Shown one piece after another: positions 14,393-49,186 of a stretch of DNA of 50,571 nucleotides (positions are counted from its first letter, which is position 1; every line of letters starts with the position of its first letter). Source of the DNA: Richelia sp. SL_2_1 (GTDB taxonomy: Bacteria; Cyanobacteriota; Cyanobacteriia; Cyanobacteriales; Nostocaceae); the NCBI GenBank assembly GCA_012033205.1, contig JAAUSO010000029.1, forward strand, positions 1-50,571. Reading direction: 5' to 3'. The notes beneath the pieces were generated by a model. It ran no database searches and was not told the DNA's origin. It saw nothing but the letters and a program-made list of their open reading frames with translations. The position numbers were made by a program, and so were the translations under genes.

Positions 14393-14989
14393 ATGATAAA
14401 CTTAAAATCCTTTCAACGGAAACAAATAAATCTATCTCAAGAAAAATTAATCAAAACTGACTTTTTTCAGGCAAAACAGCATTTGCCTTTGCTAGTTGAA
14501 CCTTTAATAGATGGCATTGATTTAGCTACTTGGGCTACTAGTAATCTGGAGTGGATTGAAACTCAGATATTAAAATATGGAGGTATACTTTTTCGCAATT
14601 TTAATATCGATAAAATTAATGGATTTGAGCATTTTATTCAAATTATTTCTGGGAAATTAATCGAATATTCTTATCGTTCAACTCCGCGCAGTCAAGTTAG
14701 TGGTAATATATATACATCAACTGAATATCCAGCCGAGCAATCAATTCCTTTACACAACGAAATGGCTTACTCAAGAAGTTGGCCAATGAAGATTTGGTTT
14801 TTTTGTGTAGAAGCAGCATCAACAGGTGGCGAAACACCCATCGCTGATAGTAAAAAAGTATTTCAGCGCATCGATCCAAAAATTAAAGAAAAGTTTATTG
14901 AAAAAAAATCATGTATGTCCGGAATTACGGACAAGGGCTTGATTTACAGTGGGAAAATGTATTTCAAACTACCAGTAAATCATTCGTGA
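14393..14989 (+). CDS. TauD/SyrP-like Fe(II)/2-oxoglutarate dioxygenase, N-terminal part (frameshifted gene, part 1)
   Basis: This is the first half of a non-heme iron dioxygenase of the TauD/SyrP family. The start is taken as ATG 14393; the in-frame GTG at 14330 would add a leader unlike the family. The first two iron ligands are in LHNEMAYS (H-x-E). The frame breaks in a run of eight A at 14901-14908; with nine A it would read EKKIMYVRNYG and continue in the next entry. Family members of this type hydroxylate carrier-bound aspartate at the beta carbon. Its position immediately before an A(Asp) module fits that role. As written, this half lacks the distal histidine and would be inactive. Confidence 0.82.
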   Translation: MINLKSFQRKQINLSQEKLIKTDFFQAKQHLPLLVEPLIDGIDLATWATSNLEWIETQILKYGGILFRNFNIDKINGFEHFIQIISGKLIEYSYRSTPRSQVSGNIYTSTEYPAEQSIPLHNEMAYSRSWPMKIWFFCVEAASTGGETPIADSKKVFQRIDPKIKEKFIEKKSCMSGITDKGLIYSGKMYFKLPVNHS

Positions 14990-15402
14990 CAAGTTATTGC
15001 TGTAATGCTGGAATTGAGTTTGAGTGGAAAGATGAAAAAAACTTAAGAACTCGTCAAGTTTGTCAAGCTGTTGCAGCTCATCCAAAAACTGGTGAAATGG
15101 TGTGGTTTAATCAGGCTCATTTATTTCATATATCCAGTTTAAAGCCAGAAGTTCGTGAATCTTTACTTTCAATGATTCACGAAGAAGAATTACCCCGTAA
15201 TGCATTCTATGGCGATGGTTCAAAAATAGAAAGTTCTGTAATAGAAGAAATTCAAGAAATTTATCAACAAGAAGCTATTTTATTCCCTTGGAAAGAAGGT
15301 GATCTATTAATGCTAGATAATATGTTGGTTGCTCATGGTCGTCAGCCGTTTGTTGGTAAAAGAAAAGTTGTAGTAGGGATGGCTGAACCTTTTTGTGCTT
15401 AA
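14902..15402 (+). CDS. TauD/SyrP-like dioxygenase, C-terminal part (part 2)
   Basis: This is the second half of the dioxygenase, open from 14902 with the first ATG at 14911. It contains the family-typical stretch RTRQVCQAVAAHPKTGEMVW, then NQAHLFH and LPRNAFYGDG, and near the end MLDNMLVAHGRQPF, which supplies the third iron ligand (His). The following Arg (GKRK or the GRQ arginine) would bind 2-oxoglutarate. With one A restored the joined protein would be about 336 residues, a normal length for SyrP relatives. It ends 41 bases before the Asp NRPS gene. The protein is inferred to act in trans on Asp bound to the carriers of the two Asp modules. Confidence 0.82.
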   Translation, partial: KKIMYVRNYGQGLDLQWENVFQTTSKSFVTSYCCNAGIEFEWKDEKNLRTRQVCQAVAAHPKTGEMVWFNQAHLFHISSLKPEVRESLLSMIHEEELPRNAFYGDGSKIESSVIEEIQEIYQQEAILFPWKEGDLLMLDNMLVAHGRQPFVGKRKVVVGMAEPFCA

Positions 15403-15443
15403 TATGCTTAGTAAGTTAACTCGGAGAATAAATGAGGTAAATT

Positions 15444-18400
15444 ATGCCAAGTAATTCTATAAACACAATTAATGGTTTCGGGCTTTCACCTCAGCAAAAG
15501 CATTTATGGTTATTGCAACAACTTGAAGTTACCAACCAACCTTATCGAGTGCAATGTTCGATTTTGATAGAGGGAAATCTTAATTACCAAGTTTTAGAGT
15601 TAGTGTTGCAAAAGATTGTTGAAAAATATGAAATTTTTCGCACTAGTTTTCAAACTTTAAAGGGTATGAATATTCCCTTACAAGTTATCGATGAATCAAC
15701 TAATAAATCTAAATTATCTATTAATATTCATAATTTAAGCGGGATTGAATCTCAAAAACAAAATCTAGAAATAGAAAATATTTATCACCAGCAACATTTA
15801 AAAATTTTTGACTGGCAGAGTAATTGTGTCCTAGATTTACATTTAGTCACTCTCTCTTCTTCTAAGAATGTTTTACTAATTGGTATACCCGCTCTTTGTG
15901 CAGATGCAGTATCAATTCATAACCTTGTAAATGAAATTAGTCAGCTATACACTGCCTGTTTACATCAGCAAGAACTTTCTGAAGAGACTTTACAATATGC
16001 AGATATTGCAGCATGGCAAAATGAATTATTTGAAGGAGAAGAAGGAGAAGTTGGAGAAGTTGGAAGAAAGTATTGGCAGAATCAAAATCTTTCGGGTTTA
16101 GTAATTAATAAACTAGCAAGTGAAAAATATTCTGCAAATAATAAATTAGCCTTTCAACCGAAATTTATTAATATTAATTTAAATGATCAGACTGTAGCCA
16201 ATATTAAAGCACTAGCAAATAACAATGGTGTTTCTATTTCGATAATTTTGATCAGTTGTTGGCAAATTTTGCTTTCCCGTCTCACCGGACAACCTGAGAT
16301 GAGTATTGCTATGTGCTGCGATGGCAGGGATTATGATGAATTAAAACCAGCCATTGGATTATTAGCTAAATATATACCAGTTAGTGTTGCCCTGAATGCT
16401 AATTCTAAATTTTCTGAAATAATCAAGCAGTTAGAAGAAAATATAAAAGAACATCAACAGTGGCAGGAGTTTTTTAACTGGGAAGAATTTGTGAGTCTAA
16501 ACCAGACTAATTATAAACTATCATTTCTACCGTTTGCATTTGAGTTTGACTCGCAAACAACAAAATATTTCGCAGAGGGCGTATCATTTTCTATTACCAA
16601 AAAATATTCTTGTATTGACAAATTTAAACTGAAATTATCTTGTCAGGAGCAGGATAATTCTTTATTAGCCCAATTGCATTACGATGCTAGTTTATTTGAA
16701 AGAGAAGATGTTGAAAACTTAGCAATTCACTTACAGACTTTATTATCTAGTGCAATTAATAAACCTGCAACTGCAATATCCCAACTAGAAATTCTTAGTC
16801 CTCATCAACGTCAGAAGATTTTAGTCGATTTCAATGCTACTCAAACCAATTATCCTCAAAACCAGTGTATTCATCAATTAATTGAGCAGCAAGCAACAAT
16901 AAATCCTCATAATATCGCAGTTGTTTTTGAAAATCAGCAACTAACCTATGCTCAACTAAATACTCGTGCCAATCAACTTGCTCACCATCTTAAGACATTA
17001 GGAGTAAGTGCCGAAACAGTTGTGGCACTTTGTGTAGAACGTTCTTTGGAAATGTGTATTGGTATTTTGGGAATTCTCAAAGCTGGTGGAGCTTATCTTG
17101 CTTTAGATCCGTTGCTACCAGAAGAGCGTCTTGACTACATGATACAGGATGCTACAGCCTCAGTCATTTTGACTCACCAGCATTTAGCCAGAATATTCTC
17201 CCAACAGCAAGTACCAATTATATGTTTCGATACTGACTGGCATAATATAGCTGAGCAATCACAAACAAATTTGCCTTGTGAAGTAACTCCTGATAATTTG
17301 GTTTATATAGTGTATACTTCTGGTTCAACTGGTAAACCCAAAGGAGTAGCTGTTGAACATAAACAACTGTTTAACTATCTGCAAAGTATTGTAGAAAAAT
17401 TAAATCTTCCTGTTGGCTCAAGTTTTGCAACAGTCTCTACCTTCGCAGCGGATTTAGGTAATACTTCGATTTTTTCGTCACTTTGTGTGGGTGGGTGCCT
17501 ACATATCATCTCCCAAGAAAGAGCAACTAATCCAGAAGCTTTAATAGAATATTGCGATCGCCATACCATTGACTGTCTTAAAATTGTTCCATCACACTTG
17601 ATGGCACTTTTGAGTGCTTCCCAACCACAAAAAATTCTACCTCGAAAACGACTAGTTATTGGTGGTGAAGCATTAAGTAGTCAACTAGTTAAGACTGTGC
17701 GACAGTATACACAAGATTGTCAGATTATTAACCATTACGGACCATCAGAAACCACTGTAGGTGTTTCTACTTTTACATTTAATATTGATAATAATTGGGA
17801 CATATCTGATACATTTTCTATCGGTAGTCCCCTTAATAATACTCAGATTTATATTCTTGATAATTATCTACAACCATCACCAATTGGCGTATCTGGCGAA
17901 ATTTATATTGGTGGAAATAATCTAACACGAGGCTATATTAACCACCCTGAACTAACCAGCGAAAGATTTATACCCAACCCTTTTGCTGATGATGGTTCGC
18001 GTTTGTACAAAACAGGAGATAAGGCACGTTATTTATCCGACGGTAATATAGAATTTCTAGGACGAGCAGACAACCAAGTTAAGATTCGCGGTTTTCGTAT
18101 AGAACTTTCGGAAATTGAATCGGTGTTAAGACAACACCCTAACATCCGAGAGAATACTGTTTTAATATGGGAAGAACAATCGGGTAACAAAGGTTTGGTA
18201 GCTTATTTTGTTACTAATAACGAATCTGAAGTTTCAAGCAACGAACTCCGTGACTTTCTTCAACAAAAGCTGCCAGATTATATGATTCCTTCAATTTTGA
18301 TACAATTGAAGGCGCTACCTCTTACATCTAATGGCAAAATAGATCGTCAAGCTTTACCAGCACCAGAAAATATTAACCCGGAATTAGCAGCTAAATTTGT

Positions 18401-20084
18401 TGCTCCACGCAATTCTGTAGAGAAAACAATTGCCAAAATTTGGTCTGGGGTATTAAAGATTGAGAAAGTGGGAATTTATGACAATTTCTTTGAGTTGGGT
18501 GGAGATTCAATTATAAGTATTCAAATCATCGCTAGACTCAATCAAGCTGGTTTGCAACTAACACCCAAACAATTATTTGATTCCCCAACCGTTGCCGGAT
18601 TAGCTGCTGTTGTCGGTAATGTTTCAAAGCTTGAGGTTGAACAAGCACCTGTGGCAGGTTTAGTTCCCTTAACTCCGATTCAGCACTGGTTCTTTGAACA
18701 AAATTTTTCTGAACCACATCACTCTAATCAAAGTTTACTGTTGGAAGTCTCATCAGAAATTGACTTGGCTCTCTTAGAGCAATCAGTGCAGTATTTACAG
18801 CAACACCATGATGCTCTGCGTCTGCGGTTTATTCCTCAAGAATCTGGTTGGCAACAAATTAACGGTAGACCAGAAGAAGTAGCAAAAGTTAGTATTTTAT
18901 ATAAAGATTTATCAATATTACCCGTAGAACCACAAGAGACTGCACTGGAAACAACAGCCACTGAGTTACAAGCAAGCCTAAATTTAGCAGAAGGTTTGCT
19001 GATGCGCTTCGCTTTATTTGACTTAGGGGAACAGGGGAAACGGCTGCTATTAGTAATTCATCATTTGGCAGTTGATGGTGTTTCTTGGCGAATTTTGATA
19101 GAAGACCTTGAGCAAGTTTATCAACAACTTAGCCAAAAACAAGCAATACAGTTGCCTTTGAAAACAACTTCTTTCAAAGATTGGTCTGAATTTTTACAAG
19201 ATTATGCACAGTCATCTCAGCTTCAGCAAGAACTAGACTACTGGTTAAAAGGTTCTTTTCAGGATATTTCACGCCTGCCGGTTGATTATCCTGATGGTAC
19301 AAATATCGAAAAATATACTGATACAGTTTCAGTATCTCTAACAGTAGAAGAAACTAAGGCTTTATTGCAGGATGTACCTGCGACCTATCATACTCAAATA
19401 AATGATATATTGTTAACCGCTTTAGCGCTAGCCTTTACTGAATGGACAGGTGGATACTCTTTACTTGTCGATTTGGAAGGACACGGAAGAGAGTCTATCG
19501 ACAACGACATTAACCTCACACGCACGGTTGGGTGGTTCACAACTATTTTCCCTGTACTGCTAAGCTTAGAAAAGATTTCCCAACCAGTAGAAGCACTCAA
19601 AGCTATCAAAGAGCAACTCCGGAGTATCCCAAATCGAGGTATTGGCTATGGGTTGTTGCGCTATCTGAGCCAAAACTCTGAAATTGTAACAAATCTGCAA
19701 ACCCTTCCTCAAGCCGAGGTGCGATTTAACTATCTCGGTCAGTTTGACCAAATACTACCTGAATCATCATTGTTTAAACTCAGTAGTCAATCTATTGGTA
19801 ACAGCCGTAGTTTGCAAAGTAATCGGCGGTATCTTTTAGACATTAATGGGTTTGTACTAGTCGGTCAACTGCAATTGGAATGGACTTACAGCAACAAAAT
19901 ACATCAAAGAAGCACAATTGAGCAGCTAGCTAACGAGTTTATCAAAATGTTGCGATCGCTAATAAACGATTGTCAATCTGGTACATCTTTTAGTTTTACA
20001 TCTTCTGATTTTCCAGAAGCCAACTTGAGCCAAAATGATCTAGAGCAGTTCCTAGCAAAAATTAATCGCGGGAGTGAGAATTAA
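15444..20084 (+). CDS. NRPS: degenerate C (interface-like)-A(Asp)-PCP-E
   Basis: This 1546-residue synthetase is intact. Residues 1-430 are a C-family domain (GFGLSPQQKHLWLLQQ) whose HHxxxDG site reads PALCADA, with no histidine; it cannot form bonds. Such domains precede Asp modules served by stand-alone beta-hydroxylases in some siderophore synthetases (interface domains). The A domain (YTSGSTGKPKG near residue 622) has the pocket D-L-T-K-V-G-H-V-G, an aspartate code. The carrier is LGGDS (about residue 1018). The epimerization domain keeps HHLAVDGVSW and EGHGRE, so it should be active and give D-configured Asp or hydroxyAsp. The C-terminal tail (SSDFPEANLSQNDLEQFL) is a COM donor for the C protein that starts 5 bases later. 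A short GGAGAAGTT-type repeat (16033-16070) encodes an acidic linker. Confidence 0.9.
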   Translation: MPSNSINTINGFGLSPQQKHLWLLQQLEVTNQPYRVQCSILIEGNLNYQVLELVLQKIVEKYEIFRTSFQTLKGMNIPLQVIDESTNKSKLSINIHNLSGIESQKQNLEIENIYHQQHLKIFDWQSNCVLDLHLVTLSSSKNVLLIGIPALCADAVSIHNLVNEISQLYTACLHQQELSEETLQYADIAAWQNELFEGEEGEVGEVGRKYWQNQNLSGLVINKLASEKYSANNKLAFQPKFININLNDQTVANIKALANNNGVSISIILISCWQILLSRLTGQPEMSIAMCCDGRDYDELKPAIGLLAKYIPVSVALNANSKFSEIIKQLEENIKEHQQWQEFFNWEEFVSLNQTNYKLSFLPFAFEFDSQTTKYFAEGVSFSITKKYSCIDKFKLKLSCQEQDNSLLAQLHYDASLFEREDVENLAIHLQTLLSSAINKPATAISQLEILSPHQRQKILVDFNATQTNYPQNQCIHQLIEQQATINPHNIAVVFENQQLTYAQLNTRANQLAHHLKTLGVSAETVVALCVERSLEMCIGILGILKAGGAYLALDPLLPEERLDYMIQDATASVILTHQHLARIFSQQQVPIICFDTDWHNIAEQSQTNLPCEVTPDNLVYIVYTSGSTGKPKGVAVEHKQLFNYLQSIVEKLNLPVGSSFATVSTFAADLGNTSIFSSLCVGGCLHIISQERATNPEALIEYCDRHTIDCLKIVPSHLMALLSASQPQKILPRKRLVIGGEALSSQLVKTVRQYTQDCQIINHYGPSETTVGVSTFTFNIDNNWDISDTFSIGSPLNNTQIYILDNYLQPSPIGVSGEIYIGGNNLTRGYINHPELTSERFIPNPFADDGSRLYKTGDKARYLSDGNIEFLGRADNQVKIRGFRIELSEIESVLRQHPNIRENTVLIWEEQSGNKGLVAYFVTNNESEVSSNELRDFLQQKLPDYMIPSILIQLKALPLTSNGKIDRQALPAPENINPELAAKFVAPRNSVEKTIAKIWSGVLKIEKVGIYDNFFELGGDSIISIQIIARLNQAGLQLTPKQLFDSPTVAGLAAVVGNVSKLEVEQAPVAGLVPLTPIQHWFFEQNFSEPHHSNQSLLLEVSSEIDLALLEQSVQYLQQHHDALRLRFIPQESGWQQINGRPEEVAKVSILYKDLSILPVEPQETALETTATELQASLNLAEGLLMRFALFDLGEQGKRLLLVIHHLAVDGVSWRILIEDLEQVYQQLSQKQAIQLPLKTTSFKDWSEFLQDYAQSSQLQQELDYWLKGSFQDISRLPVDYPDGTNIEKYTDTVSVSLTVEETKALLQDVPATYHTQINDILLTALALAFTEWTGGYSLLVDLEGHGRESIDNDINLTRTVGWFTTIFPVLLSLEKISQPVEALKAIKEQLRSIPNRGIGYGLLRYLSQNSEIVTNLQTLPQAEVRFNYLGQFDQILPESSLFKLSSQSIGNSRSLQSNRRYLLDINGFVLVGQLQLEWTYSNKIHQRSTIEQLANEFIKMLRSLINDCQSGTSFSFTSSDFPEANLSQNDLEQFLAKINRGSEN

Positions 20085-20089
20085 AACCA

Positions 20090-21541
20090 ATGAAAACAGA
20101 AAACATCCAAGATATCTACGAACTCTCACCCGTTCAGAAAGGTATTTTATTCCATAGTTTATATACTCCTGAATTAGGGCTTTATTTTATTCATTTTAGC
20201 TATACAGTGCGCGGCAATCTGAACGTTGGCGCTTTTGAACAAGCTTGGCAAGAAATAGCAACTAGATATACAATTTTGCGTACTAGTTTCTATTGGCAAG
20301 AGATTGACAAACCTCTACAAGTTGTGCATCAAAAAGTCACAGTACCATTTGAGTTCCAAGATTGGCGAGACAAAGATAGTAAACAACAAGATGAGTTTTT
20401 AAAATCTTTTCTTTTGAGCGATCGCCAACGTGGGTTTGACTTGTCTCAAGCTCCATTAATGCGCTTAACTGTCATTCGCTTAGCAGAGGACGTTTACCAA
20501 ATCGTTTGGAGCAAACATCATCTCATTTTGGATGGTTGGTCAGCACCAATTCTCATAGAAGAAGTTTTTAAACAATATAAAGCTCAGTGTCAAGGTAAAG
20601 ATGTTTCCTTACCCCCCACTCGTCCTTTCAAAGAATACATTGCTTGGTTACGAAAACAAGATCTATCTAAAGCTGAGTCATTTTGGCGAAAATTACTAGA
20701 GCCAGTGCAAGCACCTACGCCTTTAACCAATATTGAAGTAAAAAACTTATCTGGAGAGGAAAAATACGATGAGCAACAAATGAGACTCTCAGCAGAAACT
20801 ACTGCTACATTACAATCTATAGCACGGCAGCATGAACTGACTATAAATACAATCTTTCAGGGAGCTTGGGCTATACTTCTAAGTCGTTACACTTGTCAAA
20901 AGCAAGTAGTCTATGGCTGTGGTGTTTCTGGTCGTCCAGTAGATTTAACGGGAGTTGAGTCGATGGTAGGTGTATTTATTAACACTTTACCTGTTTATAT
21001 TCAGATAGAGCCAGAGCAATTTCTTATGGTTTGGCTGAAGCAACTTCAGAAACAACAAATTGAAATGCGACAGTATGAATATAGCCCCCTAGTAGAGATT
21101 CAAGGGTGGAGTAAAGTACCGCGAAACCAAACTTTATTTGAGAGCATCGTCGTTTTTGAGAACTACCCAGAAGTACAGATTGAGCAAAGCGGTGAAGATG
21201 ACTTAGAAATCCTCAATTTTAATGGCTTTTACAAAACGAACTATACCTTAAATGTAATTGGGTATCCAGGTTCACAATTAGTGATTGGAATTAATTACAA
21301 TGGTCAACGCTTTGATACCTCAACAATTACAGGAATACTTAAAGATTTTGAAATATTGCTACAAGGGATGGCAGATAATCCTAAAGTGAAACTTAAGCAA
21401 TTATCTTTTTTAACGCCAAAACAGCAGCAGATTACTTCAATCTTAGAAAAGGAAACATCAGGCTGGAACTTTTACAAATTTAGTTACCAAGGCAACATAA
21501 TTTTTAAATTTTATAAAACCTATCTTAATTATGCTGATTAA
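20090..21541 (+). CDS. Free-standing NRPS condensation domain (DCL type)
   Basis: This 483-residue protein is a single condensation domain and a paralogue of the one at 8465. It starts DIYELSPVQKGILFH, a COM acceptor/C1 region of the type that follows E domains. The active site is complete: SKHHLILDGWS. It begins 5 bases after the Asp-PCP-E gene, so translational coupling is likely. Its role is inferred to be joining the D-hydroxyaspartyl chain to the second Dab module, which lacks a full C domain of its own. The last 30 residues after LTPKQQQ are unlike the paralogue and unlike a normal C-A linker. Confidence 0.9.
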   Translation: MKTENIQDIYELSPVQKGILFHSLYTPELGLYFIHFSYTVRGNLNVGAFEQAWQEIATRYTILRTSFYWQEIDKPLQVVHQKVTVPFEFQDWRDKDSKQQDEFLKSFLLSDRQRGFDLSQAPLMRLTVIRLAEDVYQIVWSKHHLILDGWSAPILIEEVFKQYKAQCQGKDVSLPPTRPFKEYIAWLRKQDLSKAESFWRKLLEPVQAPTPLTNIEVKNLSGEEKYDEQQMRLSAETTATLQSIARQHELTINTIFQGAWAILLSRYTCQKQVVYGCGVSGRPVDLTGVESMVGVFINTLPVYIQIEPEQFLMVWLKQLQKQQIEMRQYEYSPLVEIQGWSKVPRNQTLFESIVVFENYPEVQIEQSGEDDLEILNFNGFYKTNYTLNVIGYPGSQLVIGINYNGQRFDTSTITGILKDFEILLQGMADNPKVKLKQLSFLTPKQQQITSILEKETSGWNFYKFSYQGNIIFKFYKTYLNYAD

Positions 21542-21597
21542 AGAAATGCTTAAATAATCTTGAGACTACTTTATGACAATACAAAGCGAGTAATTCC

Positions 21598-22848: not shown

Positions 22849-23018
22849 GAAAATTTTGAACATTGTCGTTGGTCGCGAGTGATATATCATAATTGATTGA
22901 TATAGTTAATCTTTGTTTCGTCACGCACCCTAAAATTAGTTTTTGCTCAAAAACTGTAAATACTTATATCGCTATACATAATGTTGCTAGAATAGCTAAT
23001 TTAAATTAGGTCAAAAGG

Positions 23019-23381
23019 ATGATTAAAACATTAGAACCGCAAGAGTTATTTTCTCAAAAAATCTACTGGTTAAACAAACTTTCGGGAGAATTACCAGAAA
23101 CAAATCTTATACTAGATTATCTTAGACCTTTACAACGTCCAGAAAAAAATAAAAACCATTGTTTTGAGTTACCATTAGACTTATCTCAAACAATTATTAA
23201 GATAACTAAAGGTTCTTACTTTGGGATATACTTAGTACTTTTATCAGTATTCAAGATACTACTGCAAAAGTACGCTCGGAATCATGACCTTATCGTCGGA
23301 ATACCAACTTATAAAAAAATAGATAACATAAATCTAGATTATTTAATGATCATAAAGTTATTCCCTTACGTACTCAGCTAA
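23019..23381 (+). CDS. NRPS N-terminal half-C fragment (frameshifted gene, part 1)
   Basis: This is the start of the second Dab module. It is closely similar to the protein start at 10057 (FSQKIYWLNKLSGELPETNL) and, like it, corresponds only to the C-terminal lobe of a condensation domain. The frame is lost near 23342-23346: one more A in TTAATGAT would give LNDHKVIPLRTQL, the expected continuation, which is present in the next frame from 23345. The gap to the upstream aminotransferase is only 170 bases, so no N-terminal lobe is encoded nearby. The missing lobe in both copies suggests that it is functionally dispensable or supplied by the free-standing C protein. Confidence 0.8.
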   Translation: MIKTLEPQELFSQKIYWLNKLSGELPETNLILDYLRPLQRPEKNKNHCFELPLDLSQTIIKITKGSYFGIYLVLLSVFKILLQKYARNHDLIVGIPTYKKIDNINLDYLMIIKLFPYVLS

Positions 23382-25786: not shown

Positions 25787-25822
25787 AGATTATTATTTAA
25801 CTGTTAACGGTTAACATTGATT

Positions 25823-28800: not shown

Positions 28801-31435
28801 ACAGAATTGGATACCACAAGGAATTGCCCATTTTTGGAGTGTAACTCCCAACGATGCTTTATCTAATCAAAAGCAAGATAAAAAAGCTCAATTAGAATTA
28901 CGGTATCAATTTTTTGAAGATTGTCAAAATCTCGGTTTTTATAGTTTGCTGTTTTTAGCACAGGCTTTAGGACAGCAAAATATCATTGAGCCAATTAAAC
29001 TGATGGTTATTACCAGTAATGTACATGATATAACTGGTTCGGAAAATTTATATCCTGAGAAAGTAACCGTATTAAGTCCTTGCAAAGTAATTCCCCAGGA
29101 ATATCCCAATATTAGCTGCTATTGCTTTGATATCGTGCTAGAAGATTCAGGATATAAATCATCACAAAAGCATATTGATTACCTGCTTGCCGAATTTAAA
29201 ACACAGCCAAATGATAATGTAATTAGTTATCGCGGAAATCATCGTTGGGTTCAAACATACGAGCCTATCCATTTAGATAAAAACTTTGCTAGTAAAACTA
29301 GGTTAAGGGAAAAAGGAGTTTACTTAATCACTGGTGGACTTGGTAATGTTGGTTTAGTATTGGCAGAATATTTGGCTCGTACTGTACAGGCAAAATTGAT
29401 TCTAATAGGACGAAAAGGTTTTCCTGAAAAACACCAATGGTTTCAATGGTTAGAAACTCACAACCGAGAAGATAATATTAGCTGTAAGATTCGTAAAGTA
29501 CAAGAAATTGAAGCTTTCGGTGGTGAGGTATTAGTTATCAGTGCTGACGTGGCAAATGAACAACAAATGCACGAGTCTATTGCGATCGCGAATAAGAAGT
29601 TTGGTAACATCAATGGTGTTATTTATGCAGCAGGAAATGCCAAGGATGCACATTGCGCTATTACAGAAACTTCGAAAGCCGAAGCACAGTCGCAATTTCA
29701 CCCCAAAGTTTATGGACTATTTGTATTAGAAAAAGTTGTAAGAGGACAAGAGCTAGACTTTTGTCAATTAACATCGTCGTTAGCATCCGTGTTGGGAGGT
29801 TTAGGATTTATCTCCTATTCCGCAGCAAACATATTTATGGATGCTTTTGTTCACAACTACAATCAAAAAAACTCTTGTCCTTGGAGTAGTGTTAATTGGG
29901 ATGATTGGGGAATCGAACAAAACCAGCACAATACAGGTGTTATGGAAACCTTCTCTAAATATTCTATGACATCAAAGGCTGGTATAGATTCATTTGTACG
30001 TCTATTATCCCTATATCAAGTTCCTCAAGTTATTGTTTCCACTGGAGATTTGCAAACTAGAATTGAGCAATGGATAAAACTTGAGTCTTTACAAACTAGG
30101 AAATTTTCAAATAACGAAGATTTTTTTACAAAACACCAAAGACCAAATTTACACACAGTATACATTCCTCCAAGAAATCAAATTGAGCAAAAAATTGCAA
30201 AAATTTGGCAACAAGTTCTTGGTATAACAGAGGTAGGAATTGATGATAATTTCTTTGAATTAGGAGGAGATTCATTAATTGCGACTTGTGTAATGTCTCA
30301 AATCAGGCAAGTATTTGGGGTAGAACTTCCTTTACGTTATTTATTTGAAAAGCCAACTATAGCAGAGCTAGCAGAAGAAATTGAAAAAGCCAAGCATACT
30401 GATTTAGGATTGGAATTACCACTCATAAAACGGATTGATCCAGGGACAGAATTACCACTATCATTTGCCCAGCAAAGGTTATGGTTCCTAACTCAGCTAG
30501 AGCCAAACAGTTCCTCCTACAATATTCCTGCGGCTGTTAGATTACAAGGAGAATTAAATCACAAAGCATTAGAACAAAGCTTCAACGAAATTGTCCGCCG
30601 TCATGAAGCGCTTAGAACCAATTTCCAAGCCTTAGAAGGACAAGCAGTAGCTGTCATTTCGGAAGATTTGCTCTTAACATTACCAATATTAGATATTAGC
30701 GAGTTACCAGCAAGTCAACAAGAAGCTGAAATTAAAGAACAAGCTCGACAAGAAGCCCAACAACTCTTTGATCTAGCCAGCGACAATCTAATAAGATTAA
30801 AACTATTCCGTCTTGGGGAGCAAGAACACATTGTACTACTGACAATGCATCATATTGTCTCTGATGCTTGGTCAACAGGGGTATTAATTGAGGAATTAGC
30901 AGCCCTATACCCAGCTTTCTGTGCCGGAAAGCCTTCTCCACTTTCGGAACTACCCATACAGTATGCAGATTTTGCTGTTTGGCAGCGCCAATGGTTACAA
31001 GGGAAAGTATTACAAACACAGCTAGATTATTGGAAAAAACAACTTGGTAATACCCATCCTCGATTAACATTGCCTAAGCCACCAAACCCTTCAAATGTCG
31101 AAAGTAGCAAGGGTGCAAAGCAATCATTTATATTGTCTAAAGAGTTAACCGAAGCAATCAATTTGCTTAATCGTCAAGAAGGGGTAACTCTATTCATGAC
31201 ACTGCTGGTGGTTTTCCAAGTGTTGCTCCATTGCTTTACAGGTACTCAAGACATCCGAGTTGGTTCACCTATTGCCAACCGCAATCGAGTTGAGATTGAA
31301 AAATTAATTGGATTTTTTATTAATACTTTGGTGCTACGCATCGACTTATCTGGTAATCCCACTTTCCGGGAGTTATTAATGCTCCCCGCGTCAAGTCACT
31401 TTAGAAGCCTATGCTCACCAAGACTTACCTTTTGA
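25823..31435 (+). CDS. Type I PKS-NRPS: KS-AT(malonyl)-KR-ACP-C (frameshifted gene, part 1)
   Basis: ATG 25823 is preferred over TTG 25817. The KS has its cysteine in QTTCSSS, plus EAHGTGT and NIGH. The AT has GHSIGEYVAA and HAFH (malonyl). The KR has TGGLGNVG and SYSAANIF with the catalytic Tyr, so it should leave a beta-hydroxyl on the Dab-derived unit. The carrier is LGGDS (about 30265). A condensation domain follows with MHHIVSDAW, where the usual Gly is Ala but the catalytic His is kept. The frame is lost at the CCCC run 31384-31387: with three C the sequence would read LPRQVTLEAYAHQDLPFEKL. The C domain joins this unit to the Asp module at 31992. No E domain is present, unlike the first PKS. 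Confidence 0.9.
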   Translation: MINIVHSNYRTGLEIAIIGMSGCFPGAKNIEEFWYNLRDGIESIHRFTDQELKDLGVDAALFNDPNYVKAEGLVKDIDLFDSSFFDISPREAEVMDPSMRFFLEHSWKALEDAGYSSELYKKPIGVYAGTGFGSYLLNIYSNYEFLASVGDKQIEKGISPSYVTTLTSYKLNLQGPSYAVQTTCSSSLVAIHLACQSLLSGECNIALAGGVSISTADGYLYQEGGIESPDGHCRAFDAKAGGTVRGRGLGLVVLKRLEEAIGDGDYIHAVIKGSAINNDGSDKVSFTAPSVNGQAKVIRAAQIMAEVEPDTISYIEAHGTGTTLGDPIEISALTQAFRAKTQEKGFCAIGSVKTNIGHLDSAAGVAGLIKTVLALKHQQIPPSLNFEEPSPQIDFANSPFYVNNKLSEWRTNGIPRRAGVSSFGFGGTNAHVILEEAPLVKPSSSSRPWQLLLLSAKTSTALENVTESLTDYLLKHPDSNLADVAHTLQVGRWNLNHRRMLVCQDQEDAIKALQDPQTVFTHYQEPCNRPIVFMFSGQGSQYVNMGRELYENETVFREQIDYCCELLKPHLELDLRTILYPSEEKAQQATQKLQQTAITQPALFVIEYALAKLWMTWGVYPEMMIGHSIGEYVAATLAGVFSLEDALTIVATRGKLMQQLPGGAMLSIALPQTEVQQFLEKEIFLAASNTPSSCVVSGTTEAIDQLQQEVQQINVSCRRLHTSHAFHSQMMEPIIDTFVQFLQKVKLNPPKIPFVSNVSGTWIKAVQATDPNYWAKHLRQPVRFCEGIIELSKTPDRLFLEVGPGRTLSTFVKQHQKEEYLVLTSIRHPREQQSDVAFLLNSLGKLWLFGVKVDWSGFYINEHRHRIPLPTYPFERKRYWIEVNRNATLAKMSEASSGKKPDIADWFYVPRWKESIPLEFFQKEKFLEEKLCWLVFADTYGVGAEVAERLKQQEQDVIIVKIADSFAKINDYTYTINPQQRDNYDTLLQALQEQNWIPQGIAHFWSVTPNDALSNQKQDKKAQLELRYQFFEDCQNLGFYSLLFLAQALGQQNIIEPIKLMVITSNVHDITGSENLYPEKVTVLSPCKVIPQEYPNISCYCFDIVLEDSGYKSSQKHIDYLLAEFKTQPNDNVISYRGNHRWVQTYEPIHLDKNFASKTRLREKGVYLITGGLGNVGLVLAEYLARTVQAKLILIGRKGFPEKHQWFQWLETHNREDNISCKIRKVQEIEAFGGEVLVISADVANEQQMHESIAIANKKFGNINGVIYAAGNAKDAHCAITETSKAEAQSQFHPKVYGLFVLEKVVRGQELDFCQLTSSLASVLGGLGFISYSAANIFMDAFVHNYNQKNSCPWSSVNWDDWGIEQNQHNTGVMETFSKYSMTSKAGIDSFVRLLSLYQVPQVIVSTGDLQTRIEQWIKLESLQTRKFSNNEDFFTKHQRPNLHTVYIPPRNQIEQKIAKIWQQVLGITEVGIDDNFFELGGDSLIATCVMSQIRQVFGVELPLRYLFEKPTIAELAEEIEKAKHTDLGLELPLIKRIDPGTELPLSFAQQRLWFLTQLEPNSSSYNIPAAVRLQGELNHKALEQSFNEIVRRHEALRTNFQALEGQAVAVISEDLLLTLPILDISELPASQQEAEIKEQARQEAQQLFDLASDNLIRLKLFRLGEQEHIVLLTMHHIVSDAWSTGVLIEELAALYPAFCAGKPSPLSELPIQYADFAVWQRQWLQGKVLQTQLDYWKKQLGNTHPRLTLPKPPNPSNVESSKGAKQSFILSKELTEAINLLNRQEGVTLFMTLLVVFQVLLHCFTGTQDIRVGSPIANRNRVEIEKLIGFFINTLVLRIDLSGNPTFRELLMLPASSHFRSLCSPRLTF

Positions 31436-31865
31436 AAAACTCGTAGAAGAATTACAACCAGAAAGAAATTTAAATCAAAATCCATTGTATCAAGCATGGT
31501 TTGTCCTCCAAAATGCTCCAATGCCAGAGTTGAAATTACCCGGTTTAACCCTCACAACCTTTGAGATTGAAAGTGGAAGCGTGCGACATGATTTGCTTCT
31601 CGCAATTTGGGAAAGTTCAGAAGGGCTTAATGGTGTATTCGAGTATAAAACTAACTTATTTCACGAGGCTAGTATTTCTCGGTTAATTGAACATTTTAAG
31701 ACAGTTGTACATCATGTTATCGTACAGCCAGATACAACATTACATGAAATTGCGACAATATTGATTCAAAGCGATGAAGAACAACAGAGGATACAACAAC
31801 AAGAACTTCAAACCGTAGAACGCCAGAAATTAAAGATGACTAAGCGGAAAATAATTCGGAATTAA
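31386..31865 (+). CDS. C-domain C-terminal end of the PKS-NRPS (part 2)
   Basis: This segment is the out-of-frame end of the PKS gene at 25823. It encodes RQVTLEAYAHQDLPFEKLVEEL, PLYQAWFVLQNAP and the final C-domain helix, then a glutamine-rich coiled tail (EEQQRIQQQELQ) similar to that at the end of the protein at 10758. Without it the condensation domain lacks its last 150 residues, including the floor of the donor side. The first in-frame ATG-like start is internal, so independent translation is unlikely to give a useful product. The next gene starts 126 bases downstream. Confidence 0.85.
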   Translation, partial: PRQVTLEAYAHQDLPFEKLVEELQPERNLNQNPLYQAWFVLQNAPMPELKLPGLTLTTFEIESGSVRHDLLLAIWESSEGLNGVFEYKTNLFHEASISRLIEHFKTVVHHVIVQPDTTLHEIATILIQSDEEQQRIQQQELQTVERQKLKMTKRKIIRN

Positions 31866-31991
31866 TGATAAAAAGTGACAAGGTATATACATCAAATAAT
31901 TTCATTTCAAGATGAATATCAATTTTTAGTAGTAATGGCTGAATACAATAGTGACCAAGAAGTTTAGTGTTAATAAAATGGTGATATTAAT

Positions 31992-34900
31992 ATGGAAAAA
32001 GAACAACTAGAAGGGTTTGGATTATCTCCCCAGCAAAAGCATTTGTGGCTTTTACAACAAAGTGAGAGTCAATTGCCTTATCGTGTTCAGCGTGCAGTTA
32101 TAATCACAGGTAATTTAAATATTGAGGTTTTAAAAACTGCATTGCAGAATGTTGTCAATCAGTACGAGATTCTTCGGACTAATTTTAATTGCCTTCCTGG
32201 GATGACAGTACCATTACAAGTAATAGCTGACACTTCTGATATTTATATCAACAAATATATTAATGAATTTAATTTTATTGGTTTGCCTCCGGAAGAACAA
32301 GAAAATGAAATTGAGTCTCTATTTACTAAATTAAAACAAACACCTTTGCAGTTAGAAAAGGACTTACCTTTACAGATATATATCATTACTTTATCTCCGA
32401 CAAAATATATATTAATTTTAAGTTTATCTGCATTAATTGCGGATAGTTTTACTCTCAAAGTTTTATTCAACAAAATTAGTAGTTCATATGCGGCTTGCTT
32501 AGGAGATAAACACATTCTTGATGAACCAATGCAATATGCGGATATCGCAGAATGGCAAAATGAACTTTTAGAGTCAAAAGAGTCAGAATTAGGTAAAGAA
32601 TATTGGCGTAAGCAAGATGTGAGTTTGATTGATAATGTAAAACTTTGGTTTGAAAACAAACAAACTACAATTTCACAATTTCAACCTGAATGCATTTCTT
32701 TAAATATCAATAATGATTTAATCAAACAGATAGAATCATTAACTAACATATATAAGGTTAATAAGTCTGATTTTCTACTAGCTTGCTGGTTGATATTACT
32801 GTGGAAAATTACTAGACAGCCGGATATATTTATTGGTGTTACTGGCGATGGTAGAAAATACGAAGAATTAAATCAAGCTTTAGGACTGTTATCCAAACAT
32901 TTACCGCATTTTTATCATTTAGAAGCAGAATTTAAATTTAGCGAAATACTAAAAAAAATAAATAAACTGGTAAATAATGCCTACGAATGTCAAGAATATT
33001 TTACCTGGCAAGAAACTGTAAACTCACAGTCTTTTTGTCCAATTAGTTTTGAATTTGAAGAATATCCGGAATTATCTGCTGGGAATCTATCCTTTTCTTT
33101 ATACAAACAGTACTCTTGTATTGATAAATTTAAAATTAAATTAACTTGCCTTCTTCAGTCTGATAATTTAATTGCCCAGTTTTATTTTGATTCAAAGTTA
33201 TATAATCTGCAAGATATCAAAACATTATCAGAACAGTTTCAAAATTTATTAGCAAGTGCAATTCAAAATCCAGAAAGTTCTATTGCGAGGCTAAATATTC
33301 TTGGCGATCGCCAAAGACAACAACTGTTAATTGAATTTAATAACACGCAAAAACAATACCCACAAGATAAGTGTATTCACCAGATATTTGAGGAACAAGT
33401 AAATCGGACACCTGATAAAATTGCTGTTGTTTTTGAAGAACAACAACTAACTTACTACGAGTTAAACACACGCGCCAATCAATTAGCTAACTATCTACAA
33501 AGCCAAGGAGTTAAACCAGAAGTTTTAGTAGGAGTTTATTTAGAGCAATCGCTTGAAATAGTTATCGCTCTACTGGCTATCCTCAAAGCAGGTGGAGCCT
33601 ATCTTCCTCTCGATCCAGCACTACCTCCAGAGAGTTTAGCGTACCGATTGCAAGATGCTCAGGTACGTGTAATTTTGACACAAGGGGCATTAGTTAAGAA
33701 AATTCCAGATTTTAAAACTCAGATAGTATCCTTAGATACAAACTGGGGAATGATTGCTCAAGAGAGAACTAGCAAACCGAATAACTTTGTAACAACTAAA
33801 GATTTAGTCTATGTACTGTTCACTTCCGGTTCTACAGGCAAACCCAAAGGAGTTGCTGTAGAACATCAACAACTTGTCAACTATGTAAATGCAATTAAAG
33901 AAAGACTAAACCTTTCGGTATGTAATAGATTTGCTACCGTTTCTACATTTGCTGCTGATTTAGGTAACACTGTTATTTTTCCTGCTTTATGTACTGGTGG
34001 ATGCCTCTACCTGGTGTCACCAGAATATGCTTCTAACCCTGAGATTTTAGCAGATTATTTTCATCGTCATTCCATAGACTGTCTGAAGATTGTCCCTTCT
34101 CATCTAAGTGGTTTACTAACATCTTCTGACGCGGCAAAAATCTTACCTAGAAAGCGACTGATTCTTGGTGGTGAAGCAAGTTCATGGAAGTTGATTGAAC
34201 AAATACAACAATTAGCTCCCCAATGCCTTATCTTTAACCATTACGGACCAACAGAAGCCACTGTAGGCGTATTAACTTATCCAATCAAGCTTGAGCAAAC
34301 TATTGATTATTCTGGGAATGTTCCTCTGGGTCGTCCAATTGCTAATACTCAAATTTATATTTTGGATTCTTTACTACAACCAGTGCCTATTGGCGTACCT
34401 GGAGAATTATACCTTGGGGGTGCAGGAGTAGCTAGGTGCTACCTAAACCGGCCCGAGCTAACAAATGAAAAATTTATTTCTAATCCCTTTGGAGAAACAC
34501 AAGAGATTGGTTTTGGTCAGCGCTTGTACAAAACAGGTGATTTAGCTCGCTATTTACCAGACGGCAATATTGAGTTTCTCGGACGGATTGATAACCAAGT
34601 CAAAATTCACGGCTTTCGCATTGAGCTAGGCGAAATTGAATCTGCACTCAGACAACACCCTAATATTCGAGAAACTGTGGTACTGGCTCGTGAGGATAGA
34701 CTAGGTAACAAATGTCTGGTAGCATATGTAGTGCCTGAAAAACAATCTACCCTTACAACACCTGACCTACGAGATTTTTTACTAGAAAGGCTAGTACACT
34801 ACATGGTTCCGTCTGCCTTTGTCAAGTTAAAAGCTCTGCCACTTTTGCCTAATGGTAAGGTAAATCGTCAGGGATTGCCAGCACCTGATAGCCGATCTGA

Positions 34901-37391
34901 TTTGGCAGAAAATTTTGTTGCACCTCGTACCACTGCCGAGAAAACACTAGCTACTATTTGGGCTAGGATTCTTAAACTCGAACAGGTAGGAATTTATCAT
35001 AACTTTTTTGAGTTGGGAGGAGATTCCATCCTTAGTATGCAGATTATCGCCAAAGCTAACCAGGCTGGTTTGCGACTGACACCTAAGCAGTTTTTTGAAC
35101 ACCAAACCATTGCCGAATTAGCTGCGGTTGCGGGTAATAATAAAGTGATTCAAGCTGAACAAGGGTTAGTAACAGGTTCAGTTCCTCTTACCCCTATTCA
35201 ACGCTGGTTCTTTGAACAGAATTTTCCCCAGATGCATCACTGGAATCAAGCAGTTTTGTTGGAAGTGCGACAAGCTTTTGACCCACTCTTGTTGGCACAA
35301 GCAGTAAAGCAATTGTTAAAGCATCACGATGCTCTGCGCCTGCGTTATAATTCCTATGGAACAGACTGGCAGCAGGTTAATACTGACTTTGACGAGGTTG
35401 TGCCATTGACCTTGCTTGATTTATCAAATATGTCAGAACTCAAGCAAAAGTCAGCCATTTCAAACACAGCCACTATACTCCATAGCAGCCTGGACCTAAG
35501 TAATGGTCCTCTGCTACGAATTGCTCTATTTGATTTAGGCACTGGTAAGTCACAACGCCTGTTAATTATTATTCACCATTTGGTCGTCGATGGCATATCT
35601 TGGCGGGTTTTGTTGGAAGACTTACAAACTGCTTACCAACAGCTTAGCCAAGGAAAGGCGATACGCGTTACTCTAACGAGTCAGCAAGCTGAACGCGCAG
35701 CGTGTCCGAAGGACTCAGCGTCAAGCCTCCGGCTTATCGCATTGCCTCCTAAAACCACATCATTCAAGCATTGGGCACAACGACTCCAAGAATATACCCA
35801 GTCTCAAGTAATACCACAAGAATTAAATTACTGGTTAACCAAGATTCCTCGACAAACTGTCAGGTTACCTGTAGACTTTCCTAATGGTGATAACACTGTC
35901 GCTTTAACTGAAAACATATCGGTGACTTTAAGTCAAGAAGAAACTCAAACTTTATTACAAAAAGTTTCCGCAACTTATCAAACACAAATTAATGATGTCC
36001 TACTCACAGCACTGATAAAAGCTGTTGAAAAGTGGGTTGGTGTGCGTTCACTGGTGGTTGATTTGGAAGGTCATGGAAGAGAAGAAATCTTCGATGATGT
36101 AGACTTATCCCGAACTTTGGGTTGGTTTAGTACTATTTTTCCGGTATTCTTAGATATTAGAAAGACAAATGGGATAGAATCTGCTTTAAAAACTATCAAA
36201 ACTCAGCTTCGGAGTATTCCGAATCGTGGAATAGGCTATGGTTTACTGCGCTATCTCGGTGGTGAAGAAGCTGCGGTTTTACGAGATTGCATACCAAAAG
36301 CAGAAATTAGATTTAATTATTTGGGTCAGTCTGACCAGTTATTCGGAGATTCGTCTTTATTTATACCAGCCCAAGAATTTACAGAAACAGAACGCAGCTT
36401 ACTGTCTAACCGAAGCTATTTACTTGATGTTACTGGGATTGTCACAGGAGGTCAATTACAGATAAATTGGACATATAGCAAGGCAATTCATCACCGAGCT
36501 ACGATTGAGCGTCTAGCTGGAGGTTTCATGGAGGGGCTGCGGGAAATCATTGCCCATTGTCATTCTCTAAGAACTAAGGAACATCCCTCGGGTTTAAGTG
36601 CAATCCCATTTGTTACTCAAGCAGAAACTTCTATTGCGACAAGCAAAATCACACTTGAAGTTTTAAATGCTGAAGCTGTACTAGATTCTACAATTCGTCC
36701 TGAAACATCTTTTGAGTATTCAAATCAGTCATCTCATATATTTTTGACTGGAGCAACAGGGTTTGTAGGAGCATTCTTACTATATGAACTTTTACAACAA
36801 ACTAATGCTAGTATTTATTGCTTGGTACGTGCTGCCAATGCTGAATTAGGAAAGGAAAAGCTCCAAAAACATCTTGAATCTTATTTTATTTGGGATGAAT
36901 CTTTAAGCGATCGCATCATTCCAGTAATAGGAGATTTGTCTGATCCGTTGTTGGGTCTTTCTGAGCAACAATTTAAAGTGATGGCTGAGAAAATTGATGT
37001 CATTTATCACAACGCTGCGGCAATTAATCTTATTTATTCATATTCTGCCCTGAAAGCGACTAATGTTCTGGGAACTCAAGAAATCTTCAGATTAGCTAGT
37101 CAAATTAAAGTTAAACCCGTACATTACATCTCAACATTGAGTGTTTTGTCTTCAGAAGGGCATGCACAAGTCAAAAAAATTCAAGAATTGCATAACTTTA
37201 GTCATAGTCAAATTCCTTCTGGTGGCTATGCTCAAACTAAATGGGTTGCCGAAAAGTTAGTTTCTACTGCATATAATCTAGGTATTCCAGTTTCTATTTA
37301 CAGGCTAGGGCGTGTATCGGGACACAGTAAACAGGTATTTGTAACACGAACGACCGTTTATATAGAATGCTCAAAGGCTTTATACAACTGA
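31992..37391 (+). CDS. NRPS: degenerate C (interface-like)-A(Asp)-PCP-E-reductase (frameshifted gene, part 1)
   Basis: This is the terminal synthetase. Residues 1-430 are a second histidine-free C-like domain (site SALIADS). The A domain pocket reads D-L-T-K-I-G-H-V-G (Asp); its A8 motif has QVKIHGFR, with His for the usual Arg. The carrier is LGGDS (about residue 1010). The epimerization domain keeps HHLVVDGISW and EGHGRE but contains a 25-residue in-frame insert from a palindromic repeat (35658-35740). From about residue 1575 there is a thioester reductase: TGATGFVG for NADPH and YAQTK as the Tyr-Lys pair. The frame is lost at TTT 37338-37340; one extra T gives VFCNTNDRLYRMLKG, which continues one frame over. 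Reductive release to an aldehyde is expected. Confidence 0.9.
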   Translation: MEKEQLEGFGLSPQQKHLWLLQQSESQLPYRVQRAVIITGNLNIEVLKTALQNVVNQYEILRTNFNCLPGMTVPLQVIADTSDIYINKYINEFNFIGLPPEEQENEIESLFTKLKQTPLQLEKDLPLQIYIITLSPTKYILILSLSALIADSFTLKVLFNKISSSYAACLGDKHILDEPMQYADIAEWQNELLESKESELGKEYWRKQDVSLIDNVKLWFENKQTTISQFQPECISLNINNDLIKQIESLTNIYKVNKSDFLLACWLILLWKITRQPDIFIGVTGDGRKYEELNQALGLLSKHLPHFYHLEAEFKFSEILKKINKLVNNAYECQEYFTWQETVNSQSFCPISFEFEEYPELSAGNLSFSLYKQYSCIDKFKIKLTCLLQSDNLIAQFYFDSKLYNLQDIKTLSEQFQNLLASAIQNPESSIARLNILGDRQRQQLLIEFNNTQKQYPQDKCIHQIFEEQVNRTPDKIAVVFEEQQLTYYELNTRANQLANYLQSQGVKPEVLVGVYLEQSLEIVIALLAILKAGGAYLPLDPALPPESLAYRLQDAQVRVILTQGALVKKIPDFKTQIVSLDTNWGMIAQERTSKPNNFVTTKDLVYVLFTSGSTGKPKGVAVEHQQLVNYVNAIKERLNLSVCNRFATVSTFAADLGNTVIFPALCTGGCLYLVSPEYASNPEILADYFHRHSIDCLKIVPSHLSGLLTSSDAAKILPRKRLILGGEASSWKLIEQIQQLAPQCLIFNHYGPTEATVGVLTYPIKLEQTIDYSGNVPLGRPIANTQIYILDSLLQPVPIGVPGELYLGGAGVARCYLNRPELTNEKFISNPFGETQEIGFGQRLYKTGDLARYLPDGNIEFLGRIDNQVKIHGFRIELGEIESALRQHPNIRETVVLAREDRLGNKCLVAYVVPEKQSTLTTPDLRDFLLERLVHYMVPSAFVKLKALPLLPNGKVNRQGLPAPDSRSDLAENFVAPRTTAEKTLATIWARILKLEQVGIYHNFFELGGDSILSMQIIAKANQAGLRLTPKQFFEHQTIAELAAVAGNNKVIQAEQGLVTGSVPLTPIQRWFFEQNFPQMHHWNQAVLLEVRQAFDPLLLAQAVKQLLKHHDALRLRYNSYGTDWQQVNTDFDEVVPLTLLDLSNMSELKQKSAISNTATILHSSLDLSNGPLLRIALFDLGTGKSQRLLIIIHHLVVDGISWRVLLEDLQTAYQQLSQGKAIRVTLTSQQAERAACPKDSASSLRLIALPPKTTSFKHWAQRLQEYTQSQVIPQELNYWLTKIPRQTVRLPVDFPNGDNTVALTENISVTLSQEETQTLLQKVSATYQTQINDVLLTALIKAVEKWVGVRSLVVDLEGHGREEIFDDVDLSRTLGWFSTIFPVFLDIRKTNGIESALKTIKTQLRSIPNRGIGYGLLRYLGGEEAAVLRDCIPKAEIRFNYLGQSDQLFGDSSLFIPAQEFTETERSLLSNRSYLLDVTGIVTGGQLQINWTYSKAIHHRATIERLAGGFMEGLREIIAHCHSLRTKEHPSGLSAIPFVTQAETSIATSKITLEVLNAEAVLDSTIRPETSFEYSNQSSHIFLTGATGFVGAFLLYELLQQTNASIYCLVRAANAELGKEKLQKHLESYFIWDESLSDRIIPVIGDLSDPLLGLSEQQFKVMAEKIDVIYHNAAAINLIYSYSALKATNVLGTQEIFRLASQIKVKPVHYISTLSVLSSEGHAQVKKIQELHNFSHSQIPSGGYAQTKWVAEKLVSTAYNLGIPVSIYRLGRVSGHSKQVFVTRTTVYIECSKALYN
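35658..35740. repeat. Palindromic repeat inserted in frame within the E domain
   Basis: An 83-base segment bounded by GCGATA and TATCGC, with internal pairs such as GAGTC/GACTC, lies inside the E domain coding region. The paralogous E domain at 15444 reads QKQAIQLPLKTTSF across this point, whereas here QGKAI and LPPKTTSF are separated by about 25 extra residues rich in Ala, Ser and Arg. The GC content is clearly above that of the surrounding gene. The insert adds 75 bases, so the frame is kept. Confidence 0.75.
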
Positions 37392-37879: not shown

Positions 37880-37884
37880 CGAAA

Positions 37885-39309: not shown

Positions 39310-39421
39310 TCAAAGTTTTGTTTTATCTAAACACCCTTTTATTGGATTGTAAAGATCGATTTGACGACCACAATTGACACTTCTGCTTTTTCATACAAAC
39401 TTCAAATTAGGATAAATTGTA

Positions 39422-47482: not shown

Positions 47483-47525
47483 GTACTCCGCCACATTAAT
47501 TTTGAGGAGTAATCAATGTAATATT

Positions 47526-49181: not shown

Positions 49182-49186
49182 GATTG

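Follow-up and report, generated by a model that had tools for sequence, protein, structure and literature searches.

Two interface-domain aspartate modules and a single stand-alone β-hydroxylase gene in a cyanochelin-like siderophore cluster of Richelia sp. SL_2_1

The contig JAAUSO010000029.1 of Richelia sp. SL_2_1 (C352; 50,571 bases, analysed over its whole length and called the window below) carries most of a cyanochelin-like siderophore gene cluster. In it, two aspartate-activating modules of nonribosomal peptide synthetases (NRPSs) each open with a condensation-type domain lacking both histidines of the HHxxxDG motif. The results showed that, by profile and phylogeny, these two domains (I1 and I2) are interface domains, and that a gene for a stand-alone TauD-family aspartate β-hydroxylase adjoins I1 and is absent beside I2. 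On balance, sequence comparison inclines us to the view that this one hydroxylase serves both modules. The window starts at the contig edge, and the genome comprises 7.55 Mb in 359 contigs with 98.3% completeness. Surveyed genomes and loci are given by their G and L numbers.

The proteins encoded at 15444–20084 (1,546 amino acids) and 31992–37391 (1,799 amino acids) each begin with a C-family domain (Pfam PF00668). I1 extends over 15444–16790 on the forward strand (597 bits with an interface hidden Markov model (HMM), and tree position) and reads PALCADA at 15888–15908 in place of HHxxxDG; I2 extends over 31992–33320 on the same strand (609 bits) and reads SALIADS at 32427–32447. The adenylation (A) domains that follow, at 16884–18338 and, for its AMP-binding part, at 33387–34445 (both forward strand; Pfam and code reading), carry DLTKVGHVG and DLTKIGHVG, respectively, which we take to be Asp codes. 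An ordinary condensation (C) domain ends each upstream protein. The first (12798–14138, forward strand, HHIISDG) closes the protein at 10776–14225, was recognised by Pfam and grouped with ordinary C domains in the tree. The second (30449–31865, forward strand), recognised by Pfam on both of its pieces and by comparison with relatives, lies in two frames (31435/31485) with a break near 31380, its motif HHIVSDA being read from the translation of the protein at 25817–31435. Pfam and the tree place I1 and I2 N-terminal to the A domain and in addition to these bond-forming C domains. A preliminary description of the window had claimed the histidine-free domains, the Asp-coded A domains and the ordinary C domains upstream, all of which hold; the frame split of the second C domain had escaped it.

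The interface HMM was built from 15 cyanobacterial domains; its lowest member retained scored 435 bits, and the ordinary C domains of the compared loci scored no more than 299 bits. The set analysed comprised 116 distinct domain sequences, the window included and a few being two cuts of one domain, from loci of a genome-collection scan (75 loci from the 80 top-ranking among at least 565 confirmed stretches), from plasmid loci and from loci of later searches. In a FastTree phylogeny the 116 formed one clade with a support of 100 against 21 ordinary C/E-type domains, and in the alignment with these 21 none of the 116 kept either histidine of HHxxxDG, indicating that histidine loss characterises the family and is no accident of single members. 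Grouping with ordinary C domains, set beforehand as the outcome that would speak against interface identity, was observed neither by profile nor in the tree, in which starter C domains were not a separate reference set. Ordinary LCL, D-type (following an epimerization domain) and epimerization (E) identities were excluded in the same way for both domains.

Protein searches of plasmid records with I1 and I2 yielded a cyanobacterial group at about 35–46% identity and then matches of 30% or less, among the 40 matches listed for each. I1 and I2 are 42% identical to each other, and the N-terminal domain of CcsL from the cyanochelin B cluster falls within the group (34.8% identical to I1 and 40.6% to I2). 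Histidine-free domains that adjoin TauD genes in Janthinobacterium, Methylocystis, Variovorax sp. PDNC026 and Bradyrhizobium (L168, L172, L173, L176) also matched the interface profile best, as did one histidine-free domain in Vibrio coralliilyticus. Two candidates were rejected: a glycopeptide X-domain identity for I1, whose match to 4tx2 (a deposited NRPS module-7 domain, presumably an X domain) was weaker than its match to ordinary C domains (52 versus 90 bits), and Variovorax VAI-C as a reference interface domain, which turned out to carry HHIAGDG and to be an ordinary C domain. The proposal of interface domains came from genomics, and those accompanying β-hydroxylases, IβH-Asp and IβH-His, were reportedly described by Reitz et al. 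in 2019. Those of the window resemble IβH domains in being C-family domains without the HHxxxDG histidines, in standing before an A domain, in being extra to a real C domain and in having a TauD-family partner, and differ from them in that I2 has no adjoining partner. The X domain of glycopeptide NRPSs, which recruits P450 Oxy enzymes, is likewise a catalytically dead docking domain of the C fold, as is proposed for I1 and I2, although the partner enzyme differs. In the part of the antiSMASH 8 paper that was covered, interface domains are listed as a domain type with profiles (PMC12230676).

The hydroxylase gene (14393–15402, forward strand) lies just before the first Asp module, as the preliminary description had stated; its division into two frames (14393–14989 and 14911–15402; Pfam TauD, 3.7e-22 and 1.4e-18), which switch within a stretch of eight A near 14905, had been overlooked there. 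Identity of the two pieces to the cyanochelin B enzyme CcsK is 51–59%, and in the alignment they preserve between them the family's HxE, distal His and Arg positions. When the C-terminal piece and CcsK were searched against the whole genome, only this gene matched, and thus no second hydroxylase of the TauD kind was found in the genome; among the window open reading frames (ORFs) scanned there was no other hydroxylase family either.

The absence of a hydroxylase beside I2 had also escaped notice. The C protein upstream of I2 ends in ...RQKLKMTKRKIIRN, and 126 bases without a hydroxylase separate this gene from I2. The same arrangement was seen in LEGE 11386 (Nostocales, L080), where the C protein ends in ...RQKLKMSKRKIIRN and is followed, after 185 bases, by the I2 counterpart, again with no hydroxylase; this genome also carries an I1 counterpart with an intact hydroxylase, and then C, EctB and a half-C domain in the order of the window. 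In L089, L093 and L096, a TauD gene lies between closely similar KLKM-KRK-like C ends and the interface domain, and the nearest relatives of I2 (76–78% identical) each have a TauD partner. When 18 domains were placed in a careful tree, I2 joined the paired domains of L093 and L096 (rows L101 and L104) and not the unpaired L080 domain (row L116); forcing I2 and L116 together as sisters worsened the log-likelihood by 48.8 and was rejected (p-AU 0.0001). By this tree, the missing genes beside I2 and the L080 domain fit two independent losses, or one loss with a later regain by recombination.

No sign was found that I2 is a relic. The ratio of interface- to A-domain divergence between I2 and L116 was 0.98 (a single pair, weak when taken alone), compared to a mean of 1.56 over 73 paired pairs of the same band, and three pairs among the unpaired domains of L040, L042 and L050 averaged 1.59 compared to 1.81 for 31 paired pairs. 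Nei–Gojobori dN/dS was 0.21–0.27 in three unpaired comparisons (L040, L042, L050) and 0.26–0.61 in seven paired ones; I2 itself is too distant from its kin for such an estimate. Of 27 interface-specific residues, ten unpaired domains kept 89% (I2 also 89%), compared to 87% in 101 paired domains (leave-one-out) and 4% in ordinary C domains. These sequence tests speak for constraint, which is distinct from hydroxylase binding.

Interface domains would, in the explanation that we put forward, be condensation-fold domains that have lost catalysis and dock an Fe(II)/2-oxoglutarate-dependent aspartate β-hydroxylase beside the carrier-bound Asp. The single stand-alone hydroxylase of the window would dock on I1 and, in trans, on I2; both Asp residues would be converted to β-hydroxy-Asp (β-OH-Asp) and then inverted by the E domains, so that the outcome would be two D-configured β-OH-Asp iron ligands. 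I2 would have lost its own hydroxylase gene and been retained because the remaining enzyme serves it. We infer the docking, the sharing, the hydroxylation of the second Asp and the stereochemistry. If one enzyme does serve both modules, two D-threo-β-OH-Asp residues are predicted in the product by analogy, since both modules have the form seen in cyanochelin B (self-standing hydroxylase plus E domain).

The Asp modules of the Leptolyngbya sp. NIES-3755 cyanochelin B cluster (with CcsK/CcsL and a fused hydroxylase with CcsI) open with a histidine-free C-like domain as in the window. Both clusters have a TauD hydroxylase just upstream, an A(Asp)-T-E module, release by a reductase and a siderophore as the product type. 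However, each of the two interface modules of cyanochelin B has its own hydroxylase, one fused and one stand-alone, whereas the window has a single stand-alone enzyme and no fused one; and, of the two Asp modules, a single one contains an E domain in cyanochelin B, whereas both do in the window. Furthermore, I1 and I2 both fall among domains paired with stand-alone enzymes, unlike the fused and stand-alone pair of cyanochelin B. Of the cyanochelin-type traits, the window has the siderophore context and the two Asp modules that carry interface domains; in place of one fused plus one stand-alone hydroxylase, one per module, a single stand-alone gene was found in the genome. In the part of the cyanochelin B work covered, CcsL, which follows the self-standing hydroxylase and whose module has an E domain, is assigned the D-threo-β-OH-Asp (PMC12628792).

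The stand-alone TauD enzyme also recalls the TβH-Asp system, for example MobD of tistrellabactin, with about 50% identity in plasmid relatives. MobD is described, in the text covered, as acting with a GGDSI carrier domain (PMC10391617). The window differs from that system in having interface domains, since TβH-type enzymes go with a GGDSI carrier and no such domain; the stand-alone TauD genes of L166, L169, L170, L171 and L175 had no recognisable interface-type domain next to them. Two cyanobacterial hydroxylase clades, CyanoBH_Asp1 and CyanoBH_Asp2, are named in an eLife paper of 2026 whose main text, as far as covered, does not use the word 'interface' (PMC12971057). No description of one hydroxylase common to two interface domains was found in the covered portions of the interface-domain, cyanochelin and hydroxyaspartate-siderophore literature, the founding studies of 2019 and 2021 lying outside that coverage, and no binding test of interface domains turned up in the same material.

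The proposal of the preliminary description that one hydroxylase serves two modules is favoured in so far as no second gene was found, the unpaired domains are conserved and the tree points to separate losses at the same junction; what counts against it is that interface domains normally have a hydroxylase of their own. A TauD gene was found upstream on the same strand within 2.1 kb of 105 of the 116 domains (within 405 bases of 97); eight had none, and for three the sequence upstream was too short. Across 388 evenly sampled genomes of the class, where the top four or five candidates per genome were scored with strict cut-offs, 60 interface domains in 35 genomes comprised 49 paired, nine unpaired and two contig-edge cases, and in 12 further genomes picked as relatives 28 of 32 were paired (counted by eye). 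With pairing as the norm, two domains with one hydroxylase are an exception.

The places where unpaired domains occur back hydroxylase sharing only in part. Over several surveys 24 unpaired domains were tallied, read by eye from tables. Nine lie on a contig and strand that also bear a stand-alone hydroxylase (in the window, G006, G007, G008, G012, G053, G067 and G402, and one of those in G009), and 15 do not. Among the latter, the contig and strand of three bear only a fused or long-frame hydroxylase (G342, G404, G409), two have a hydroxylase on the opposite strand (G391, and pieces in G260), four have one on other contigs only (G001, G016, G384, G408; several of these contigs are short), two in G009 have no hydroxylase within 80 kb, and for four no such hydroxylase was found in their genomes (G010 twice, G011, G107). 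An apparent link between unpaired interface domains and E domains (E domain in seven of eight readable unpaired modules, 17 of 61 stand-alone-paired and one of 15 fused-paired) was set aside as main evidence, because three of the seven form a single clade and because L080, whose other copy was cut in the count, has none.

Other observations also weigh against sharing. The window hydroxylase is of the I1 lineage, and the partners of the close relatives of I2 rank 26, 28 and 29 of 103 in similarity to it; sharing would therefore require it to work with an interface domain from a different lineage. The window gene is split over two frames, and the I2 module of L080 lacks an E domain. Distance matrices of interface domains and hydroxylases were correlated (Mantel r 0.63, 103 pairs, none of 999 permutations as high). 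However, over 78 pairs the correlation with the hydroxylase was 0.67 for the interface domain and 0.60 for the A domain (difference 0.07, bootstrap 95% range −0.04 to 0.18); the A domain correlated better in the stand-alone subset of 61 (0.76 versus 0.69 for the interface domain), and the interface domain in the Asp-coded subset of 42 (0.70 versus 0.46). Since this A-domain control is not clearly lower, linkage can explain the whole correlation, and co-phylogeny was dropped as proof of docking.

If the enzyme were not shared, I2 might be kept for structure only, as a spacer or a C–I–A contact, leaving the second Asp plain and iron bound by one β-OH-Asp and other ligands. The missing gene beside I2 and the I1 lineage of the remaining hydroxylase agree with such a role, from which purifying selection is equally expected, and so do interface domains in genomes that yielded no hydroxylase of this kind (G010, G011, G107) and two unpaired domains that precede non-Asp A domains (L053 in G009 and L069 in G011). 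On the other hand, the interface-specific residues are as well preserved in unpaired as in paired domains, nine of the 24 still have a stand-alone hydroxylase on their contig and strand, and known cyanochelins contain two β-OH-Asp according to the portion covered of PMC12628792. We regard a purely structural I2 as unlikely, while giving it serious weight.

The split hydroxylase gene could instead mean that the cluster is decaying, with the hydroxylase and four other domains frameshifted and no product made. Five in-domain frame breaks were found in the window, in the ketosynthase (KS) domain at about 2.8 kb, the hydroxylase at about 14905, a half-C domain at about 23.3 kb, the C domain at about 31.38 kb and the reductase (R) domain at about 37.37 kb, and transposase-like genes lie between FetA and FetB. 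The breaks were judged against relatives, because a plain frame-switch heuristic cannot separate indels from overlapping genes. C307 (L134, L135), a second NRPS/polyketide synthase (PKS) contig of the same genome, has three in-domain breaks in 40 kb, and nine sites flagged in ten stretches of relatives all fall at the ends of frames that read as separate genes; the simplest account is therefore that the breaks are probably indel errors in the assembly, although real gene decay in both clusters may be an alternative. Other NRPS-bearing stretches of this genome, L136 and L137, contain no break. Decay of the cluster thus appears improbable. Hydroxylation of the second module by an enzyme outside this TauD family, or by one encoded on an unassembled part, is very improbable, for although the window starts at a contig edge, the completeness leaves room and some relatives have a phytanoyl-CoA dioxygenase (another hydroxylase family), no further TauD enzyme of this kind was found in the genome, no other hydroxylase family was present among the window ORFs scanned, and in G007, whose two modules share a single long contig, the accessory genes scanned offer just a luciferase-like monooxygenase as another possible oxidase.

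With one hydroxylase serving both modules as the reading that we prefer, the remaining parts of the modules and of the cluster are as follows (all on the forward strand unless stated). Module 1 continues with a carrier (T) domain (18426–18611; Pfam, GGDSI motif) and an E domain (18657–20018, HHLAVDG; Pfam Condensation, clustering with other E domains), and module 2 with a T domain (34944–35126; Pfam, GGDSI) and an E domain (35193–36557; the E profile is the best match, and the extent is taken from partial hits). The GGDSI carrier was rejected as a TβH-like recognition element: stand-alone-paired modules without E carry GGHS (38 of 38 readable, six more being unreadable), and GGDSI in the window modules goes with the E domain, so that the interface domain is what the modules have in common.

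The hybrid NRPS/PKS cluster begins with C(end)-A-T, KS-AT-KR-T-E-like, C, half-C and A-T-C, continues with the TauD hydroxylase, I1-A-T-E, C, an EctB-type transaminase, half-C, A-T, KS-AT-KR-T-C and I2-A-T-E-R, and ends with an aminotransferase, a methyltransferase, a thioesterase, a PvdQ-like acylase on the opposite strand and FetA/FetB-like transporter genes. The E-like domain that ends the PKS protein (2874–8453) has the degenerate motif HDLVIDN, and the next C domain (8465–9883) reads NHIIIDG. Behind module 1 lie a free-standing C domain of the type following E (20090–21541, HHLILDG; Pfam, tree) and the EctB-type diaminobutyrate transaminase (21598–22848; TIGR02407, 584 bits, cut-off 552). 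The half-C domains (10057–10779, and 23019–23700 in two frames) correspond to the C-terminal half of PF00668 (positions about 187–440) and open proteins whose A domains look diaminobutyrate-like by their codes. They belong to a conserved subfamily (44–67% identical in L055, L088, L043, L030, L070, L011, L022 and L027), and an EctB-type transaminase lies directly upstream in seven of 11 copies (the second copy of the window, L011, L022, L030, L043, L070 and L088), an arrangement resembling that of TauD upstream of interface domains.

The reductase (thioester release) domain (36744–37879; Pfam NAD_binding_4, frame change near 37370) lies directly behind the E domain and is followed by a glutamate-1-semialdehyde-aminomutase-like aminotransferase (37876–39309; scores below curated cut-offs) and then a methyltransferase, within 36744–40186. 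This order suggests that an aldehyde is released and then converted to an amine, which we liken to the action of myxochelin MxcL. A similar gene order behind unpaired interface modules was read in L040, L042, L050 and L062 from ORF order and sequence ends, with Pfam confirmation of the aminotransferase in G007 only. The siderophore context is given by the FetB-like permease (49184–49981; profile scan) and the PvdQ-like acylase (42773–44917, reverse strand; NF051460, 2.4e-73, below cut-off), an enzyme of siderophore maturation, together with TonB receptors in related clusters; no TonB receptor was present among the window ORFs scanned. The FetA-like gene (47087–47512) is truncated, ending early at 47512, and, by ORF reading, the transposase-like genes between it and FetB lie on the other strand. 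FetA and FetB are present in the clusters of Nostoc NIES-3756, where they are adjacent, and of G007 too.

Interface-type domains also precede A codes other than those for Asp, Asn and His, in L053, L069, L133 and L018 (DAWQYGLID, DARHMGVID, DLYDFSLVW and DAHITTHVV, respectively), of which L053 and L069 have no TauD neighbour; these domains are possibly repurposed. Among the codes read behind interface domains (L040, L042, L050, L048, L054, L057 and others), DLTKIGEVG, which we take to be Asn-like, occurs 17 times and DSALIAEVW, presumably His-like and mostly in a separate clade, 15 times, which suggests β-hydroxylation of other residues in cyanobacterial siderophores.

For the family, we consider it nearly as likely as not that interface domains can outlive their own hydroxylase gene and are then served in trans, even across lineages about 40% identical, with repeated losses of redundant hydroxylase genes making an architecture of one enzyme and several domains recurrent in cyanobacterial siderophore clusters. 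If this holds, the number of β-OH-Asp residues would have to be read from interface domains and not from hydroxylase genes. Natural clusters with two interface domains, one hydroxylase and intact genes would provide a clean natural test of the role of the interface domain. If the hydroxylase is shared in trans, the prediction of product structures from clusters would change, and the docking domain would be portable and useful for engineering hydroxylated peptides.

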